A DNA stretch of 64,000 nucleotides from Myxococcales bacterium (lineage in GTDB: Bacteria; Myxococcota; Kuafuiibacteriia; Kuafuiibacteriales; Kuafuiibacteriaceae): assembly GCA_019634385.1 (NCBI GenBank), contig JAHQVK010000050.1:84072-148071 (forward strand), given 5' to 3'. The notes beneath the pieces are model-generated. The model searched no databases and was not told the DNA's origin. It saw only the letters and a program-made list of their open reading frames with translations. Both the position numbers and the translations under genes were made by a program. Shown here in pieces: positions 14,373 through 24,009 of the stretch. Positions within the stretch are counted from its first letter, which is position 1. Every line of letters starts with the position of its first letter.

Positions 14373-15782
14373 CTATCGACTATGGTCCAAGGCGGCCCGA
14401 AAAGCTTCTACCTGAGCTTCGGTGTCAATCAGTAGCTGCTCTGCCTCTGCCAGTTGGTGGGTGGCTCTATCCACTGCCGCTTCTGCACGTGCCCGAGCCC
14501 CAAATAAGACGTTACGATCCTTTAAACTCTCCTCAAGCTCTGTCTCCACCTCTACCAATCTGGTGCGCGCCTGAGCAGCGGCCCGTTTGGCAGTGACATA
14601 CCGCCGTTCTAGACGTCGAGCCTCGGCGCGTTCAGTCTTGGATAGTTTTAGATCACTTAGCCGTTGCTCTTTGAAGTCGAATCGCAGATGAAGGTTTCGC
14701 GAAAATCTAAGACGACGGACTATGGACCGGTATCCAGGTTTCTCGAGACGAAGTCTAGCTCGATCACCCTGCGGCATTTTTACGTCATAAAGCGGCGTTT
14801 GGCCCACATAACGTTCTCCCAAAAATGCACTTGCGCTATCGGGAACCGTCTCAACATTCAAATGTACAGCTGGTTGTAAAGAAATCGGTTCGAGCACCTG
14901 AAGCCACTCTTCCCCTATTTCGACAACTCTCTCCGCGGCAATATGGTTGTCCAATTCCACTTGAATGTGTACTCGAGCCCCCACCATGAGCTGTGGGACA
15001 TCAATGGGAGTCTTTCCTGCGACACTCTGCCCATTGATACGCACTCGAGCACCTCGGGGCTCAGTCATTACTCGAATGGTACGTACGGGAGTCAATGAGA
15101 AAAAGATCGTCTCGGCCTGAGCAGTCTGTATTTCTATAGTTCTATCTACGGGTTCAGTAATGTATCCATTTCTACGGACAGATACAGTAAGAATAGTTCC
15201 AGGCTCATATTCCATCAATGGCGATGGTGTGATCAAATCTATATCTTCTCCGTTTATACTTATGATCCCACCGCTAGGCTCACTCATGATTGAGATCAAG
15301 CCTGGGGTAGATACTAGCGATGGTTGCATCAAGAAAAATAGCATACCCATGCCCAATACACAGACTCCACCCAGAATAACCGCAAGGCGGCGCCTAGCGC
15401 TTAACAATACCCATCCGCGATCTGAATCCTCAGGTGTAAATAATTCCATGGGCAGCGTCATCGATATCGCTTGCCCGTCATTCGGGCGAGAGCGATTTGC
15501 TCGAGGAGCCGTTGAGGTAATGGATGGCAATTTCAACAACGGTGCGGAACCGACCCGAGATCGGGAACTCAGAGTAGTATTATGAACTTGCTCAATATTC
15601 CGGCCGCTTTTGGGAGACAAAAACAGCGAACTATCATCCCTGGGAAACTCCAGGGCATCCCCCCAAGAACCATGACCAAGCTCGTCTTTAGCATGCTTCC
15701 GGCTAATAGGAGTCACTGTGCGACGGCCATCTCCGGTTAACACACCCTCTGGCTGGTCTTCACCTGATTTTCGGGACACCAC
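14373..15782 (-). CDS. Membrane-anchored protein with three PEGA-like domains and a C-terminal coiled coil
   Basis: A hydrophilic N-terminal segment is followed by one transmembrane helix (RRRLAVILGGVCVLGMGMLF). Three PEGA-like repeats follow, each starting with a strand such as ISIMSEPSGGIISINGE, IRVMTEPRGARVRINGQ and LNVETVPDSASAFLGER. The last roughly 100 residues are an Ala/Glu/Arg-rich coiled coil. PEGA domains are common in cell-surface and kinase-linked proteins of Myxococcota; an envelope scaffold role is inference. The track extends the ORF to 16124, but that part is antisense to the dehydrogenase gene. I chose GTG at 15782 because TTAGGT precedes it at a suitable distance. A TTG at 15821 or the ATG at 15461 are alternatives. 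Confidence 0.8.
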   Translation of the reverse strand: MVSRKSGEDQPEGVLTGDGRRTVTPISRKHAKDELGHGSWGDALEFPRDDSSLFLSPKSGRNIEQVHNTTLSSRSRVGSAPLLKLPSITSTAPRANRSRPNDGQAISMTLPMELFTPEDSDRGWVLLSARRRLAVILGGVCVLGMGMLFFLMQPSLVSTPGLISIMSEPSGGIISINGEDIDLITPSPLMEYEPGTILTVSVRRNGYITEPVDRTIEIQTAQAETIFFSLTPVRTIRVMTEPRGARVRINGQSVAGKTPIDVPQLMVGARVHIQVELDNHIAAERVVEIGEEWLQVLEPISLQPAVHLNVETVPDSASAFLGERYVGQTPLYDVKMPQGDRARLRLEKPGYRSIVRRLRFSRNLHLRFDFKEQRLSDLKLSKTERAEARRLERRYVTAKRAAAQARTRLVEVETELEESLKDRNVLFGARARAEAAVDRATHQLAEAEQLLIDTEAQVEAFRAALDHSR

Positions 15783-15870
15783 AGAATTACCTAACCGCGG
15801 CAGCACCAATAGGTCTACCAAGCTATTGCAAGGCTTGACGCCACCACGAGCAACAAGGGAACTCCAATTG

Positions 15871-16893
15871 ATGGACGATGTCTTTGCGCTCCTCGCCGAA
15901 ACGGATGTGGAGCGATGTATGCTGTTGACCGATACAGCGAGTGGCCTACAAGCCATTTTGGTCCTCGACGATTTAACCCTTGGGCCGGCAGCCGGGGGGG
16001 TGCGCACCGCCAAGTACCCCAATTTTGCGAGCGCTCTTCGGGAAGCCCAGCAACTGGCTCGGGCCATGACCCACAAGTGTGCTCTCGCAGACATAGGCGC
16101 AGGCGGCGGCAAAATTGTGGTCATCGACCATGATGCCCTAATACGCGAAGCCGCCTTTGAGGCCCTAGGAAGCCACCTCGAAAATCTCGAGGGCCTTTTT
16201 CGTACCTCTGGGGACTACGGGACCACCCAACGAGATCTTCGAGCCATGGCACGAAAGACTCGATACGTTCAGTCCGATGGTGAGCATCTCGTCGCCTCAG
16301 TGGGTCAAAGCGTCCTTAGGTGCATCGAAGCCATTCAACAATTTCGGGGGGCGCCAGCTCGCGTTGATGGACTCAAGGTCGCAATTCAGGGTTGTGGTTC
16401 AGTCGGCGCATCCGTTGCCCGTGCTCTTGCCAGCCAGGGCGCAAACCTGATCGTCAGTGACATCAATAAAGAACGGGCGAAGGCTGTGGCTACCGAATCG
16501 GGGGCCACAATAGTTGATCCGGAAGATATTATTCACATCGAAGCTGATGTCTTAGCCCCTTGCGCTATCGGTGGGTGGCTCAACGAAAATATTGCTGAGG
16601 AGTTAGCAGCCCGCGCGGTTTGTGGACCCGCTAACAATGTCCTTACCAACGTCGCAGCTGCAGAGCGTCTTCAGGCTCGAGGCATCATCCACGTACCCGA
16701 CGCTATAAGCTCTGCAGGTGCGGTCATTGAGGGGATCGGGCGCGCCGTGATGGGACTACCGGATCGGACACCGCTCATCGACCACCTCGGACGCACCGCC
16801 CTGACGGTTCTCCGAAACGCCAGGGAAAAGGGAATCACACCCTACGAAGCCGCGGAGGCTCTAGCTCAGGCTCGTCTGGCCCTGGCGCGCTGA
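15871..16893 (+). CDS. Leu/Glu/Phe/Val-type NAD-dependent amino-acid dehydrogenase
   Basis: This enzyme oxidatively deaminates a branched-chain or aromatic amino acid to its 2-oxo acid, or runs in reverse. The substrate-binding lysine is in MTHKCALA and the catalytic lysine in GAGGGKIVV. TSGDYGTT is followed by the Rossmann motif VAIQGCGSVGASVARAL and the CGPANNVL loop. This pattern matches leucine/valine/phenylalanine dehydrogenases rather than GdhA, and the 340-residue length fits. The track start at 15718 is too early; ATG at 15871 (MDDVFALLAETDVERCM) fits the family. Exact substrate preference cannot be read from sequence. It converges on the PLP decarboxylase gene across a strong hairpin. 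Confidence 0.9.
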   Translation: MDDVFALLAETDVERCMLLTDTASGLQAILVLDDLTLGPAAGGVRTAKYPNFASALREAQQLARAMTHKCALADIGAGGGKIVVIDHDALIREAAFEALGSHLENLEGLFRTSGDYGTTQRDLRAMARKTRYVQSDGEHLVASVGQSVLRCIEAIQQFRGAPARVDGLKVAIQGCGSVGASVARALASQGANLIVSDINKERAKAVATESGATIVDPEDIIHIEADVLAPCAIGGWLNENIAEELAARAVCGPANNVLTNVAAAERLQARGIIHVPDAISSAGAVIEGIGRAVMGLPDRTPLIDHLGRTALTVLRNAREKGITPYEAAEALAQARLALAR

Positions 16894-16897
16894 GCAC

Positions 16898-16930
16898 GAG
16901 GCAGCTCACTGGTTCGCAGTGAGCTGCCTC
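16898..16930. terminator. Perfect 14-bp hairpin shared by two converging gene ends
   Basis: GAGGCAGCTCACTG and CAGTGAGCTGCCTC form a perfect stem around a five-base loop. The stem begins five bases after the dehydrogenase stop and contains the stop codon of the opposing PLP decarboxylase. It is a likely bidirectional terminator, although no T-run follows on either side. Confidence 0.7.
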
Positions 16931-18450
16931 CCAAGATGATCAATAATATTCAAGGTCTTCGCTAAGTCTGTTTCCGTGACTTCGGGGTTCATGATCAACA
17001 ACCGAAAAAAATTTGGCAGTTCATCCAAGGGTTGATAACCGAGCATCGTACTGCCTTCCCGCTGCATCGCATCCTTAATAAGCGGTGTAAGGGCATGCAA
17101 GCGGGCGTACTGTCCTCGCGTTAAAGCATCATACCTCAACGGGCGAAGCTCTTGAGGAACCCACCAAAACCCTACATTGGCAAACGTTCTTGGATGGGCA
17201 AGGGTGAACGAGGGATGAGCATGAATCATGTGTTCGAATTGCTCCGCTAAAGTTACAGCTCGTTCGATACGCTCCTTAAACCACATCTCTCCCCGGAGTT
17301 TCCAGGTTAACCACAGCTTGAGCCCATCCGAGCGACGCCCACACATCAACGTAAGGTCCCCCAGATCCACCTCAGAATGATTCTTGTCGGATTGAAATAT
17401 ATAGTTGGCCTGCGTAGCAAAGGCGTCTCGAAGTAAAGACGAACCTTGGATAAGTAACACCGAGCATTGCTGGGTGATCCCCATCATCTTATGAGGATTC
17501 CACGACAAGGATTGAGCCCGCGAGGAGCCGTCCATAAGCCTTCGGAGTTTATCCGAAAACAATACTGTGCCTCCATAACACGCATCTACATGCATCCACA
17601 TACCTTCAGCGGTAGCGAGATCGGCAATGTCTTGTATGGGATCAAACCCTCCAGTCACCGTGGTTCCAGCGGTTGCGTTCACAAAGAATGGCACGAGACC
17701 GGCATTCCGACTTGCCTGAATCGCAGCCTTGAGCTCGCTAAGGAGCATGCTTCCACGCGTATCACACGGAACTTTATAGACGTTCTCACGCCCTAGACCG
17801 AGCATGACCGCCGCTTTTTCTATCGAATAGTGACTATGCACTGAGGTAAAGATGGCCAAGGGACACGGTGCATACATGCCCTTTCTTAATGTTTCCGGTC
17901 TACACCAGGTTCGTGCAATATGTATTGCCCAAAGGTTTGAGGTCGCCCCCCCGGGAGTAAACAAACCGTGTGCACCAGGTTGAAGCTGGGGACCATCTTC
18001 CGGCTCTGACATTCCCGACAGCTGTGACATCCGTGCCAAGAGCTCATTTTCCATCAGCGTAAATACCGGTGCCATCTCGTACGTCGCAGCGGTGGTATTA
18101 AGTAGCGTAGTCAACCAATCCCCGAGGATGGCTACCGGATCCGCACCGGCCCAATTTTGATTAAAAAAGCGCGGATGAGAGGCATTCACCGCATACTTTA
18201 GGACTGTCTCCAACGCCTGTAACATAAGCTCAGCCGGTCGTCCGGCCTCCCCTTTTCGGATGGGCAGTTCTACATGCTCAGAGAAAATTGCGTGGAGATC
18301 ACTAGGTGAAGCATAGCGAACCACCGGCTCATTTTGTGTCCGTCCCTCCACTAAGAGGGCGGCAAGGCGTTGACTGGCTATTTCCAACCAGCGTCGGACT
18401 TCCGGATCATCTCGATAAGCACCCAAGGACGGAGGCAACACAGAATTCAT
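16906..18450 (-). CDS. PLP-dependent amino-acid decarboxylase (group II, glutamate/cysteine-sulfinate type)
   Basis: This is a pyridoxal-phosphate decarboxylase of the glutamate/aspartate/aromatic amino-acid family. The PLP lysine is in SLSWNPHKMMG, and the aspartate that contacts the pyridine ring lies in MWMHVDACYGG. GLFTPGGATSNLWAI and ATAGTTVTGGFDPI are further family signatures. The track start is a GTG at 18465. ATG at 18450 (MNSVLPPSLGAYRD) has GGAG five bases upstream and is preferred, giving about 514 residues. It is the last gene of the GH3-membrane protein-RND cluster, 39 bp after the RND gene. Its substrate is unknown; the context suggests it could supply an amine to a lipid or amide product. 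Confidence 0.88.
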   Translation of the reverse strand: MNSVLPPSLGAYRDDPEVRRWLEIASQRLAALLVEGRTQNEPVVRYASPSDLHAIFSEHVELPIRKGEAGRPAELMLQALETVLKYAVNASHPRFFNQNWAGADPVAILGDWLTTLLNTTAATYEMAPVFTLMENELLARMSQLSGMSEPEDGPQLQPGAHGLFTPGGATSNLWAIHIARTWCRPETLRKGMYAPCPLAIFTSVHSHYSIEKAAVMLGLGRENVYKVPCDTRGSMLLSELKAAIQASRNAGLVPFFVNATAGTTVTGGFDPIQDIADLATAEGMWMHVDACYGGTVLFSDKLRRLMDGSSRAQSLSWNPHKMMGITQQCSVLLIQGSSLLRDAFATQANYIFQSDKNHSEVDLGDLTLMCGRRSDGLKLWLTWKLRGEMWFKERIERAVTLAEQFEHMIHAHPSFTLAHPRTFANVGFWWVPQELRPLRYDALTRGQYARLHALTPLIKDAMQREGSTMLGYQPLDELPNFFRLLIMNPEVTETDLAKTLNIIDHLGRQLTANQ

Positions 18451-18489
18451 GATAACTCCGGCCACGGAACAACGCGCAGTGTCGCGAAA

Positions 18490-20994
18490 CTAGCGACCAG
18501 CCTTAAGCAACAAAAGGGCAGGAAGTGTTAGTACGCCGGCACACACACAAGTCACTTCGCTGATCGCCATGGCCGCACCGAAAGAATTGAGCGCACTATT
18601 TGTCGAGGTATACAAGGAAATATAACCAATGATGGTGGTTAGACTACAGAGCACAACTGCTCCTCCCGTACCATCAACCGCCGCTTGTATCGCAGCCCAC
18701 CGATTTTCACCGTACCGCCGCCGTTCGTCCACATAACGACGCATCACGTTGACACCATAGTCAACGCCATTGCCGAATGTAATTGGAAACGCAACGAAGT
18801 TTAGAAAGTTAAGTTTAATACCCCCTAATGCCATAAAAGCACCCATCCAGAGAATACCAAGCAGCAGTGTACCTAGGGTAAATAGACGCTCACCCCATCG
18901 CCTAAAGGTTAGCACTAGCAAAAAGATAGTTGCCGTAAGAGCAGCCCCCACGGCCAATGGCCCATCCACCCAAATTGCCTGAAGCAAATCCGCAAAAACA
19001 GGAGGTTGTCCAGCGATCGCAGGACGCTCGCCGTTCAACAACCGCACTGAGCGCACCGCGTCGGCCCACTCTACAAGATATTTCCCATCCCAATTGTTTC
19101 GGCCTGGATAATGCTCAACAAAAATAATCTTTCCCAAGGTCCCGTCCGTCTCAGCGAAGTACTGAGCGATTGACCCCGGAAGATCTTTGGGCGTGAGAGT
19201 TTTGAGCTCATCAGGCAATCGGTTGTCCTCGAGCCGTTTTTTGTCCTCCGCTTCAGCATGCTTCGCCAACTTCGGCACTATTTCCTGAATCTCCTCTAGG
19301 ATTTCCAGCTTGTCTTCCTGTTCCTCAGGCAAAAGATCCCACACCGTACGTACCGCTCCAAACGCTGTACTCGATGTTTCGCTTCGGTACCGATCGAGTT
19401 GATTGGTCACAAAAGGTACATCCGCCACGCTGGGGACCAGTATGGCTATCGCAGAACCGGTGGTAGTCTCATCCACAATTTCGGACTGGCGATCGTTCAC
19501 CCACTGGGTCCTGCTCCCGACCGGACGACGCGATTGAAGGTTCCGAAAGTCGTATTCCATGGGATTGGACCGAATCGCAAAACCTACCACCACGAGACTC
19601 ACAGCAGCGAGCAACATAGAGACTAATACTGTGAGCCTCGGGCTCTTTGCGATCAGCCCAGAGAAAAATCTCCCGTAGCTGAAGCCACGGATCTCAGCGG
19701 AACTTCCGTGCTCTTGGTCGACCAGCGCTTGAGGTCTCAGCCTCTCGAAAACAACCACCAGCGAGGGCAACAGCGTATAGGCGGTCAGCCAGCACAACAC
19801 CATTCCTACTCCGCCGATAATGCCAAAATCTCTAAAACCCCGAAAATCGGTCATCACCAACGACACATATGCCAACCCAGCAGCAGTACTCGCCGTAAGC
19901 GTTGCCGCCCAGGTAAGCCAATGTGTCTCTTGTAGTGCCGCCATCTGTCCTTTTCCTTGACGGCGTAGCTCAAAGTATCTCGCCAACCAAATAATATTAG
20001 GATTGATACCATTGCCAAGCACAATACTTGAGAGAAAGGCGCTGGAGGCATTTAAATAGTCTACAGTCAGTTCTGCGACCGCAAATGTAATCAACAAAGG
20101 GGGAACCATAGATAGTCCCAACACAATCAATGCTAATACTTGCCCAAAGAAAACATACAGAATAACCAGCACCATAACCACAGTTATCACCGTTGCCCAA
20201 ATAACCGCTTGAGTCAGTGCTTGTTGCTCTTCGTGGATATCCATGAGTTCTCCACCAAAGAACACATGCAAGCCATCTTTGACATGTGACTCTTCAAGCT
20301 CAGCGCTTTCCGCCCGGAGAGCCGAAAGGAGCCGATCAACTTCAGCTGTCTCTCCGCCTTTAATAGTAGTCCGCACAAAAAAGACCACAAGCGGCAGCTC
20401 GGGATGCTCAAAGTATCCACCTGGAAACTGTGCTACCTTGTCCCGCGCCTCTGCCGCTTTTGCATCCAGTCGGTTCATCACCGCTGCTGGGTCAGGAGGA
20501 ACACCATCATCATCGCTGAGATCCACGTACAGTGGGTTTGCACGCCCTAATTCGTAAGAAAGACGATCGGAGAGAACATCTCGGACTTCTTCAAGATCTT
20601 CAAGATTGGCGTACAAATGGCGATGCTTTTCAACAAACTGTGTGAACTCGCTAACATTCCAGTCGACCGAACTGATACTCGCCAGAGGATGGGTTGCCAA
20701 CCTTTGAGCGAACTCATAGACCGCCGCACGAGCTATGGTATTCGTGTTCGCTTCAACCGCTATCGTTAAGGTCGCCTGACGACCGAACCGCTCCTGAATC
20801 TCATTGAGATCTTGAACGCTCGGCTTGTTCTCCGGCAGCAAAGCGGTGAAGTCACCATTGAGGCTCAGTTCCAAGACTAACGGGATCGCAAGTAACCCCA
20901 TAGTGAAAGCCGCGCATACTATACGGAGTGGGTGGGAAATCTGTGCATCAACCAGGCGACTCCATACGCCGCGGAGGCTCAACTCCATTCGCAT
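18490..20994 (-). CDS. RND/MMPL-superfamily exporter
   Basis: This is an inner-membrane transporter of the RND superfamily with two homologous halves. Each has one N-terminal helix, a large periplasmic loop and a cluster of helices (for example VITVVMVLVILYVFFGQVLALIVLGLSMVPPLLI). It resembles the HpnN/MMPL-type lipid exporters in size and in the early motif FTALLPENKPSVQDLNEIQ. A second half starts near residue 420 after a charged linker. Within the second helix cluster FGNGVDYGVNVMRRYVDERR is a typical signature. The track start at 21087 runs into the upstream gene. ATG at 20994 (MRMELSLRG), with GGAG shortly upstream and only 4 bp after the preceding stop, is the likely start. Substrate is unknown; neighbours suggest a lipid or acylated compound. 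Confidence 0.9.
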   Translation of the reverse strand: MRMELSLRGVWSRLVDAQISHPLRIVCAAFTMGLLAIPLVLELSLNGDFTALLPENKPSVQDLNEIQERFGRQATLTIAVEANTNTIARAAVYEFAQRLATHPLASISSVDWNVSEFTQFVEKHRHLYANLEDLEEVRDVLSDRLSYELGRANPLYVDLSDDDGVPPDPAAVMNRLDAKAAEARDKVAQFPGGYFEHPELPLVVFFVRTTIKGGETAEVDRLLSALRAESAELEESHVKDGLHVFFGGELMDIHEEQQALTQAVIWATVITVVMVLVILYVFFGQVLALIVLGLSMVPPLLITFAVAELTVDYLNASSAFLSSIVLGNGINPNIIWLARYFELRRQGKGQMAALQETHWLTWAATLTASTAAGLAYVSLVMTDFRGFRDFGIIGGVGMVLCWLTAYTLLPSLVVVFERLRPQALVDQEHGSSAEIRGFSYGRFFSGLIAKSPRLTVLVSMLLAAVSLVVVGFAIRSNPMEYDFRNLQSRRPVGSRTQWVNDRQSEIVDETTTGSAIAILVPSVADVPFVTNQLDRYRSETSSTAFGAVRTVWDLLPEEQEDKLEILEEIQEIVPKLAKHAEAEDKKRLEDNRLPDELKTLTPKDLPGSIAQYFAETDGTLGKIIFVEHYPGRNNWDGKYLVEWADAVRSVRLLNGERPAIAGQPPVFADLLQAIWVDGPLAVGAALTATIFLLVLTFRRWGERLFTLGTLLLGILWMGAFMALGGIKLNFLNFVAFPITFGNGVDYGVNVMRRYVDERRRYGENRWAAIQAAVDGTGGAVVLCSLTTIIGYISLYTSTNSALNSFGAAMAISEVTCVCAGVLTLPALLLLKAGR

Positions 20995-20998
20995 GCTC

Positions 20999-22009
20999 TT
21001 AATCTCCTTCGGCGAGAGTAGAAATTTTCTGCTCTTCGGCTTCTGATCGCCCTCCGCCCGTCCCCGAGAGCAACGCCATTGCAGCAATGGTATATTGGGT
21101 GAGTCGGGCCACTAATGCGATGGCGATCGCGCGAGCAAAATCGTCTGAAAGCCCCAGGACTGGTGCAAAAACTCTGTAAAAAGTTTCAGTGATACCAACC
21201 GCATTCGGGACCATTTCTCCCATACCCGCCCCCACCAAATGGATACCTTGGGCGACAAAAGCGGACGGCACGGTCAGCTGACCACCAATTGCGAGAAGAA
21301 TTATCCCGTACTGTAGCGCTTGAATAATTCTTCCCAAAGATGTCCACCACAAAGCCCAACCGGGCCACATACGCGCAGGCTGAGCCGCATCCAAAGCCTC
21401 GGCATAAGGCTGAACAAAGGGCAACCATCGAGCCAATTTCGCTCCGAGTGCCGAACGTGAGGAGAGAAACAACATACCGGTCCCCAGAGCCCCAGTAGCA
21501 AGGCCGTTCAGAACCAGTAACCAGGCCAGGCTATGAAAAACCCCCACCCCTGAAACAACAGCAATCCAGCACGGGACCGAGATCACGGTATTTGCGAGGA
21601 GGGTTACGCCTTGTAGTTGGGCAGCAGCAGTCGCCGCATGAAGCCCGACGTACCGAGATAACTGAGCCGCCCTCATGACTTCCCCACCGGCACGTCCGGC
21701 CGGCAAGAGAACCATCACTCCGTAAGCGACCGTAGCGCTCCGTATCCACACCCTCCAAGGTATTCGTTCTCCGCCGTGCTCTCTGAGCAAAAACCGCAGA
21801 CCAACCGCATCCATAGAGATCCAAGCCACTTCAAGAAGGAATATCAGGGGAAGCCACGGCGCAGCCCGTACCATCACTTCGAGCACCTGCTCTGGCCCAG
21901 ACTCACGAATCAAGAAAACTACCGCGATTGCTCCGAACCCAAGGAGCAACCAGCGACCATACTTTTGGAGAAGACTAACCAGTCTACCCCGTGCCCCAGG
22001 ATAGGACAT
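20999..22009 (-). CDS. UPF0104/AglD-like integral membrane protein (LPG-synthase flippase-domain family)
   Basis: The 336-residue protein has about seven to eight hydrophobic segments and belongs by appearance to the lysylphosphatidylglycerol synthase transmembrane-domain (UPF0104) family. Typical motifs are LLPAGRAGGEVMRAAQL near residue 100 and MGEMVPNAVGITETFYRVFAPVLGL near 260. Family members include lipid flippase domains and membrane proteins of glycan or lipid pathways; the exact role of this one is unknown. It is tightly packed between the GH3 gene (5 bp gap) and the RND gene (4 bp gap), so the three are probably translated from one message. Confidence 0.85.
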   Translation of the reverse strand: MSYPGARGRLVSLLQKYGRWLLLGFGAIAVVFLIRESGPEQVLEVMVRAAPWLPLIFLLEVAWISMDAVGLRFLLREHGGERIPWRVWIRSATVAYGVMVLLPAGRAGGEVMRAAQLSRYVGLHAATAAAQLQGVTLLANTVISVPCWIAVVSGVGVFHSLAWLLVLNGLATGALGTGMLFLSSRSALGAKLARWLPFVQPYAEALDAAQPARMWPGWALWWTSLGRIIQALQYGIILLAIGGQLTVPSAFVAQGIHLVGAGMGEMVPNAVGITETFYRVFAPVLGLSDDFARAIAIALVARLTQYTIAAMALLSGTGGGRSEAEEQKISTLAEGD

Positions 22010-22014
22010 CAGGC

Positions 22015-23661
22015 TTAAGCAACCGTCCCACGGAGTGACCGAAGGAGGTCACGCCCGGCATCATCTACGATCCGCGGAAACTTCGTCTGGACGCTAGTGC
22101 GACCAGATTCACGCATAAAACGTTCAACGGAGCCGCGAGGTAGGACGATCAGTTCCGGCGGCAGAATGGCCGCGTCCTTCGAGCGGTGTTCACGGTAGAC
22201 ACGATTTTCCACACAGAGACCCTCGTCGAACGCACGAGCAAAGGCAGCTGGATCCGGTGGAACATCACTTTCAAACTCAGCAAACAACAAATAACGCGAC
22301 TTTGCTGTCCCTTCGACTCCAACATCTGCACCCGCCGCATAATCCACGGTCGTAACTGCAAACTGCCCAAGCGCATGATCCATAGCTCGTTGAACTTCCA
22401 CATGGGTGGTCAATTCTTGGGTCGTGCTCAAGCACCCAGACAAGCGTCCGGCAAACTCGATTCGAGGGGGAGAAACGCTCGGGAACCGCACAATATCACC
22501 GAGTTTATAGGAATAGAGTCCCGAACACGTGGACACCAAGATCGCGTAGTTGACCCCCGGTTGGACATCCCAAAGGGGCAACCGAGTGGGCCGGGGCGCA
22601 TCCAATTCATCAACGGGGACAAACTCAAAGAATACTCCACGGTCAGGAATCATCAACATCCCAGGCTGACCCGAGTGGTCCGAAACCGCAAGCAGACCAC
22701 CCTCTGTGGCGTTATAGGTATCCACAAGGACCAAGTCTTCGCGACCGACCCGTTCTCGTATCACCGGAAGATATGGCTCTGCAGCGACCCCGCCACCTAT
22801 CAAAAATCTAAGATTTGGCCACAAATCCGAAACATTCCGTACCCGGCGGCCCCGGCGATAAGCCACCTCTAGGAGTTTATCGAACAGCAACGAAAACCAG
22901 CAGGTTGTCCCCGTAATCGTACGCACATCGTAGTCGAGATATTGCTCAGCGATCATCGTCAGTTTTTTGTCATAGTCTGACTCCAGCTGCGCCGGACCGT
23001 GAGGAATGTACAAAGGCCGAGCCAGCATAGGCACCTTCGTAAACATCAACGCTGGGTTGCACGTCACCTTGACCGCCCCCTGGTCCTTCATAGTCGTGGG
23101 GGGCAACAGACCCAAGGTATAACCCGTGGCAAAACGATCATCTTTGGCCCAAAACAGATAACGAAATAGCGCATCCGTTCCCATAGCCCGCTGATATCTA
23201 ATCTGGCGTTCAGTTATAGGTAGAAACTTTGATCGTCCCTGATTGGAACTTCCTGATGAGTTGCCAAAGTATGGCACAAACTCGGGCACCAATAGATTTT
23301 TCTCTCCGGCCATCATTCGCTCAATAGCGGGGAAAAAACTATCGTAGTCACCGATCGGCACCCTGTCCGTCCAGTCAGAATAGGTCCTTATTTCACGAAA
23401 ACCATGAAGGCGACCAAACTCTGTGCCAGCTGCATGACGCGCCAATCGCCGCATCTGCCCAAGCTGGGTGGTCTGAATTTGCTCAAGCGCCCGGTCCCAC
23501 GCCGGAATTCGTATCCGAGCCGCCGCAAGCAGTCCCTGTGCAACCCATTTGGGATAAGGGGATGGCTTGACAAAACGGACTGACGTTGATAGCGGGGGCC
23601 GCCTGATGCTGGACGTGGCGCTGTACGAAACCATCTTCGGCCGTCGCTTAGCCTTCGCCAC
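22015..23661 (-). CDS. GH3-family acyl-acid amido synthetase/adenylase
   Basis: The protein matches the GH3 auxin-responsive promoter family, members of the ANL adenylating superfamily that in plants activate carboxylic acids as acyl-AMP and join them to amino acids. Visible signatures are the phosphate-binding loop YFGNSSGSSNQGRSKF, YNATEGGLLAV for nucleotide binding and YSYKLGDIVRF near the hinge. The 548-residue length is normal for bacterial members. The start is GTG at 23661; ATG at 23634 (MVSYSATSS) is possible. It heads a tight run with a UPF0104 membrane protein and an RND exporter, with a PLP decarboxylase at the end. An acid-activating and exporting pathway is a reasonable inference, but no product is known. 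Confidence 0.88.
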   Translation of the reverse strand: MAKAKRRPKMVSYSATSSIRRPPLSTSVRFVKPSPYPKWVAQGLLAAARIRIPAWDRALEQIQTTQLGQMRRLARHAAGTEFGRLHGFREIRTYSDWTDRVPIGDYDSFFPAIERMMAGEKNLLVPEFVPYFGNSSGSSNQGRSKFLPITERQIRYQRAMGTDALFRYLFWAKDDRFATGYTLGLLPPTTMKDQGAVKVTCNPALMFTKVPMLARPLYIPHGPAQLESDYDKKLTMIAEQYLDYDVRTITGTTCWFSLLFDKLLEVAYRRGRRVRNVSDLWPNLRFLIGGGVAAEPYLPVIRERVGREDLVLVDTYNATEGGLLAVSDHSGQPGMLMIPDRGVFFEFVPVDELDAPRPTRLPLWDVQPGVNYAILVSTCSGLYSYKLGDIVRFPSVSPPRIEFAGRLSGCLSTTQELTTHVEVQRAMDHALGQFAVTTVDYAAGADVGVEGTAKSRYLLFAEFESDVPPDPAAFARAFDEGLCVENRVYREHRSKDAAILPPELIVLPRGSVERFMRESGRTSVQTKFPRIVDDAGRDLLRSLRGTVA

Positions 23662-23706
23662 GTTAGATGGCTAGCGTTTTTCGCGTGCTGTGCGCGGCTT
23701 CAAGGA

Positions 23707-24009
23707 TTAAAACCCATTTACCATCAGGGTTCGAATCAGGTGACCCACACCACTGAGCCCCACGATCACCAGCATAGGCGATACGTCCAATCCCCCCAAC
23801 GACTCAGGAGAAATAAGCGCGCGAAGCGGCCTACACAGCGGTTCGGTCAGCGCGTGGGTGATGTTCCGAGGGAAAGCCTCTGCGTTTGGGACTACCCACG
23901 AAAGGATAACCTCCATCACCATCACCATACTCAACACTCGCAACAGTAAGAGTACAAACTCCATAGCTACCATCTCGGCACTATACCTCGTTAGCCAAAC
24001 AACCGCCAT
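23707..24009 (-). CDS. YggT-family membrane protein
   Basis: This small protein (100 residues) has two hydrophobic segments separated by a conserved loop. The first is LLLLRVLSMVMVMEVILSW; the loop ALTEPLCRPLRALISP is the YggT signature; the second is SPMLVIVGLSGVGHLI. YggT proteins are inner-membrane proteins linked to osmotic shock tolerance and found near division or SepF-type genes in other bacteria. Here it precedes the GH3 gene by 45 bp on the same strand. ATG at 24009 is used; a later methionine (MEFVLLLL) is possible. Confidence 0.85.
   Translation of the reverse strand: MAVVWLTRYSAEMVAMEFVLLLLRVLSMVMVMEVILSWVVPNAEAFPRNITHALTEPLCRPLRALISPESLGGLDVSPMLVIVGLSGVGHLIRTLMVNGF

Follow-up and report, generated by a model that had tools for sequence, protein, structure and literature searches.

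The locus studied here raises the question of whether a few closely packed genes form a complete pathway for making and exporting a lipid. On the minus strand of the window, by which we mean the whole 64,000-nucleotide stretch analyzed, a GH3-family gene is followed by two putative transport genes and a PLP decarboxylase gene. According to a sequence-only reading, the GH3 enzyme could activate an acid, the decarboxylase could make an amine, and the two transport proteins could move the resulting amide or acyl lipid.

Organization of the gene cluster

The GH3 acyl-amido synthetase-like gene (22015-23661, minus strand, 548 aa; Pfam GH3, GH3_M and GH3_C) lies 5 nt from the gene of a UPF0104/LPG_synthase_TM (flippase-like) membrane protein (20999-22009, minus strand, 336 aa; PF03706), which in turn is separated by 4 nt from the gene of an RND/MMPL-type exporter related to HpnN (18490-20994, minus strand, 834 aa from ATG 20994; MMPL). 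Next on the same strand is a group II PLP decarboxylase of the GAD/CSAD/GADL1 type (16906 to 18450 or 18465, 514-519 aa; PF00282). The gap between the RND and decarboxylase genes is 24 nt if translation starts at GTG 18465 and 39 nt if it starts at ATG 18450, the latter having the better ribosome-binding sequence (GGAG upstream). The spacing of 4-5 nt, the gene order and the protein families given in the sequence-only reading were all confirmed. We found neither a consensus promoter nor a terminator-like site in the RND-decarboxylase gap, and promoter and terminator counts across the region were not above those of shuffled sequences. The absence of such sites from the gap favored a single unit, whereas the lack of co-occurrence of the decarboxylase with these genes elsewhere did not. 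The base composition of the cluster genes equaled that of adjacent genes and therefore gave no sign of a recent insertion.

A YGGT membrane protein gene (23707-24009, minus strand, 100 aa; PF02325, 53.7 bits) sits 45 nt upstream of the GH3 gene, inside the range originally noted, which extends to 24009. It is possibly the first gene of the GH3 transcript; there is no evidence for its functional linkage to the cluster. At the other end, the 3' end of the decarboxylase gene (16906) faces a convergent amino-acid dehydrogenase gene (15718-16893). This plus-strand gene of the Glu/Leu dehydrogenase family overlaps the 5' end of a minus-strand PEGA-domain ORF (14373-16124), and the PEGA gene itself probably starts farther downstream than the 5' end of the long ORF.

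The GH3 enzyme

All three domains of the GH3 protein (98.8, 64.4 and 60.8 bits for the N-terminal, central and C-terminal domain, respectively) scored above the Pfam cut-off of 23.6. Its AlphaFold model (pLDDT 84.7, pTM 0.80) best matched plant GH3.6, GH3.11 and GH3.5 in the PDB (TM 0.71-0.78; GH3.6, 0.77), and all three nucleotide-binding motifs were kept (SSGSSNQGRSK, TYNATEGG and SGLYSYKLGD), the first exceeding its counterpart in plant GH3s and OlsH by one residue. Plant GH3 enzymes join hormones or benzoates to amino acids; the window protein shares the fold (TM up to 0.77-0.78) and the nucleotide-binding motifs of such members as JAR1, GH3.6 and GH3.12, but only about 20% identity. Judged by modeled fold and motifs, it is a genuine acyl-amido synthetase-type protein for which amide formation is predicted, and the sequence-only reading was supported in this respect.

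The nearest curated family was OlsH (lyso-ornithine lipid synthetase), whose NCBIfam cut-off of 620 bits was not reached (272.6 bits), and by sequence the window GH3 is a distant OlsH relative. In vitro, OlsH converts ornithine and fatty acid into N-acyl-ornithine in the presence of ATP and Mg, and the lipid is lost when the gene is deleted (PMC12493201). The planctomycete OlsH/OlsI pathway resembles the locus in that a bacterial GH3 enzyme leads to a fatty amide precursor of a membrane lipid (PMC12493201), the gene is located within a lipid operon and the nucleotide motifs of GH3 are kept. On the other hand, the window GH3 is far under the equivalog cut-off, and its hinge loop (the region of JAR1 residues 427-434) reads TQEL, compared with F-G-x-H in all 34 OlsH-like sequences compared. 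It also lacks an adjacent OlsI or OlsG gene, being linked instead to UPF0104, RND, decarboxylase and YGGT genes. Assignment of the enzyme to ornithine-lipid synthesis was dropped on the basis of score, hinge loop and neighbors.

A related gene cluster in other members of the phylum

We compared the locus with 195 genomes of the phylum and inspected the neighborhoods of the nine closest GH3 genes (47-53% identity). The class of the source organism comprised four genomes, all of one family, and the other three had either distant GH3s only or none. Conservation of the four-gene order, which the sequence-only reading proposed as a check, was not observed: the order was absent around the close GH3s in the 195 genomes as well as at 42 GH3 loci on genome contigs, most of which came from other phyla, and the decarboxylase was found beside no other GH3 examined. 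What did recur in relatives was the association of GH3 with the transport genes, whereas membership of the decarboxylase rests on its position in one genome.

An inositol-phosphate synthase (MIPS) gene came after GH3 in eight of the nine loci; seven of them continued with a DegT aminotransferase gene, and the eighth contig ended before that point. In the ninth locus (G172), a more divergent DegT gene adjoined GH3 without MIPS, and a UPF0104 gene was located about 5 kb away. The longest arrangement, GH3, MIPS, DegT, UPF0104, inositol monophosphatase (IMPase) and RND, was present in G181 and G133, with junctions that were overlaps (4 nt at several) or gaps of at most 96 nt. G168 had GH3-MIPS-DegT-UPF0104 followed by aldo/keto reductase and GMC oxidoreductase genes, and G167 had GH3-MIPS-DegT with UPF0104 starting at the contig end; the neighborhoods of G135 and G193 also ended at contig ends. 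The GH3-MIPS-DegT-UPF0104(-IMPase-RND) loci in the phylum lie at L175:1913-10325, L177:8720-17144, L176:8800-16382 and L174:1-4259. Linkage of UPF0104 to GH3 can hardly be due to chance, since the window query found 10 UPF0104 matches in about 320 Mb of the relatives (about one per 32 Mb), so that about 0.004 would be expected in the roughly 128 kb of GH3 flanks, where the same query found three.

Phylogenetic analysis placed the window GH3 as sister to the GH3s of these clusters (support 100; 98 for the cluster group itself). Eight of the nine cluster GH3s were included, G046 having no separate row. The window and cluster sequences branched apart from OlsH-like sequences of planctomycetes, Bacteroidota and Alphaproteobacteria, and shared the YNATEGG motif and the TQEL hinge loop. 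Thus, the relatives' loci and the window have sister GH3s together with UPF0104 and RND genes in a head-to-tail unit, but the relatives contain MIPS, aminotransferase and phosphatase genes where the window has the decarboxylase only. Neither MIPS nor DegT is present beside the window GH3, and no MIPS orthologue was found in the source genome (best match, 1.8e-5).

The relatives' MIPS resembled inositol-3-phosphate synthases, and their DegT matched inosose aminotransferases among other sugar aminotransferases; these resemblances make an aminocyclitol the likely product. We regard GH3-MIPS-DegT-UPF0104(-IMPase-RND), on the similarity of its proteins, as a candidate pathway for N-acyl aminocyclitol lipids. 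No description of a GH3-inositol-aminotransferase lipid cluster was found in the literature searched. Because enzymes expected to make another amine are encoded between the GH3 and transport genes in relatives, the general idea of an amine lipid gained unexpected support. The gene unit is real, and the amide-lipid proposal is plausible and gains strength from the relatives. The part of that proposal sustained by comparison is the GH3-transport linkage; a decarboxylase as the conserved source of the amine is not.

The transport proteins

The UPF0104 protein matched PF03706 at 48.5 bits (cut-off 33.4) but scored only 36.4 of the 195.65 bits needed for the HpnL model TIGR03476. Similarly, the RND protein matched MMPL at 105.9 bits (cut-off 20.5) and stayed below the cut-offs of two HpnN NCBIfam/TIGRFAM models (234.2 of 751.85 and 150.4 of 1100 bits); the only solved structures found to be related to it by sequence were HpnN-type chains. 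HpnL- and HpnN-type proteins are thought to flip or move hopanoids across or out of the inner membrane. The RND protein is thus closest to the HpnN type and the UPF0104 protein weakly HpnL-like, both types being found in lipid contexts, although both window proteins fall under the curated cut-offs. Among the genes of the cluster, we identified no hopanoid gene, no O-acyltransferase and no periplasmic partner component.

Neither transport protein appeared to be confined to GH3 loci. A fixed partner for the RND protein was considered and rejected: its best relatives in the phylum adjoin Kelch-repeat, aminotransferase/PAP2, FHA or HEAT genes, and because of these varied neighbors the protein type is not GH3-specific. 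In family f18, the relatives of UPF0104 adjoin PutA rather than GH3. The UPF0104 tree neither proved nor rejected common descent of the GH3-linked copies (p-AU 0.223), and branch support in the RND tree did not settle the position of the window copy relative to the cluster copies of the relatives. Both trees are too weak for orthology, and the association may therefore have been inherited or put together more than once.

The decarboxylase and its likely substrate

The decarboxylase (PF00282, 281 bits) was most similar to human GAD67 (375.6 bits), CSAD (373.9 bits) and GADL1, the three spanning 375.6 to 348.1 bits, and its match to the DABA decarboxylase model (195.9 bits) was far weaker. The HPRFFNQ, NPHK (catalytic Lys) and NFFR (substrate-binding Arg) motifs of this group were conserved. 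At the specificity position it has Trp, aligned to Phe of CSAD and Ser of GAD; CSAD and GADL1 have Phe and Tyr, respectively, in place of the GAD Ser, and these residues narrow the pocket (PMC7367687). The window enzyme thus has an aromatic residue as in CSAD and GADL1, but differs from these enzymes in being bacterial, in following a lipid gene set and in carrying Trp rather than Phe or Tyr. From this one residue, we predict that Trp shrinks the pocket in favor of a small acidic substrate (aspartate or cysteine sulfinate) over glutamate, and conversion of aspartate to beta-alanine would be the likeliest reaction. Other homologues were of little help: those on plasmids (26-31% identity) were uninformative, and searches of the cluster-bearing genomes G046 and G032 returned matches of 29-31% only.

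In the source genome (G000, 93% complete), no match to PanD (PF02261) was found by a search that was positive in eight of 14 control genomes, whereas PanC was present (1.3e-91). Beta-alanine in this organism should thus come from another enzyme, unless PanD is encoded in the portion that the assembly lacks. Cysteine dioxygenase (PF05995) was not found in the genome either.

Possible functions of the cluster

The explanation that we tentatively prefer, though we would put it at somewhat less than even, is that the cluster makes an N-acyl amine lipid with an unproven headgroup and moves it to the envelope, the decarboxylase supplying the amine in this genome. GH3 would activate a fatty acid with ATP and couple it to a small amine at the amino group. 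UPF0104 and RND would then flip the resulting N-acyl amide and transport it either through the inner membrane or out of it, by analogy with HpnL and HpnN. The amine would be provided in the source genome by the adjacent GAD/CSAD/GADL1-type decarboxylase, most likely as beta-alanine from aspartate, and in relatives by inositol-phosphate synthase, DegT aminotransferase and inositol monophosphatase as an aminocyclitol. The main argument for the decarboxylase as a replacement amine source is that a MIPS orthologue is absent here while a decarboxylase lies in the unit. Its role is weakened because no second genome has the decarboxylase in place, and also because no PanD was found whereas PanC is present.

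These last two genes point to CoA, for which beta-alanine would be an equally direct use of the decarboxylase; the enzyme may serve CoA synthesis instead or also. It is possible, although we consider it doubtful, that the decarboxylase is simply the cell's aspartate 1-decarboxylase for pantothenate/CoA, located downstream by accident, and that GH3-UPF0104-RND forms a lipid unit of its own that obtains its amine from another source. PanP is a PLP enzyme able to stand in for PanD and thus offers a precedent, yet the decarboxylase is far under the cut-off of the PanP model TIGR03799 (140.1 of 606.1 bits). An active site of the CSAD/GADL1 kind would suit aspartate (PMC7367687), and the unconserved linkage to GH3 also fits a role in CoA synthesis; what speaks against it is that the gene follows RND on the same strand across a short gap in which no terminator or promoter was found, and that PanD may be encoded in the 7% of the genome that the assembly lacks.

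Direct formation of an N-acyl amino acid such as N-acyl-ornithine, as by OlsH and without any decarboxylation, is unlikely. It draws on OlsH being the nearest curated family and, among the related bacterial enzymes found, the only one whose activity has been tested (PMC12493201), but the score is less than half of the cut-off, the hinge loop and missing OlsI/OlsG neighbors differ as described above, and the sister GH3s are accompanied by enzymes that should yield an aminocyclitol. Less probable still is a route through hypotaurine or taurine, formed from cysteine sulfinate or cysteate, to lipids of the N-acyl-taurine type: despite the strong similarity to cysteine sulfinic acid decarboxylase and the aromatic specificity residue, this route was lowered because cysteine dioxygenase was not found, although cysteate could arise by another route.

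Bacterial GH3 proteins are widespread, and OlsH was the one tested bacterial GH3 lipid function found in the literature searched. Extending our preferred reading of an N-acyl amine lipid beyond this genome, the GH3-flippase-RND core might represent a hitherto undescribed family of N-acyl amine lipids in the envelope with an exchangeable headgroup module: aminocyclitol (MIPS, DegT and phosphatase) in most members and a decarboxylase-made amine, e.g. beta-alanine, here. We hold this broader proposal to be conceivable but rather less than probable. If true, there is a second clade of GH3 enzymes that produces amide lipids of a different kind and has transport genes dedicated to them, the exchange of amine-making genes between relatives offers a direct test of how GH3 amine specificity evolved, and N-acyl aminocyclitols and lipids of the N-acyl beta-alanine type are the compounds to look for by mass spectrometry.

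A further form of the GH3-MIPS-DegT arrangement was observed in small genomes (about 1.8 Mb) of one family, where it is accompanied by an AAA-type kinase-like gene (L074:6416-12337 and L075:5608-12793); immediately upstream of one of these two loci are Rieske oxygenase and carnitine acyltransferase-like genes.
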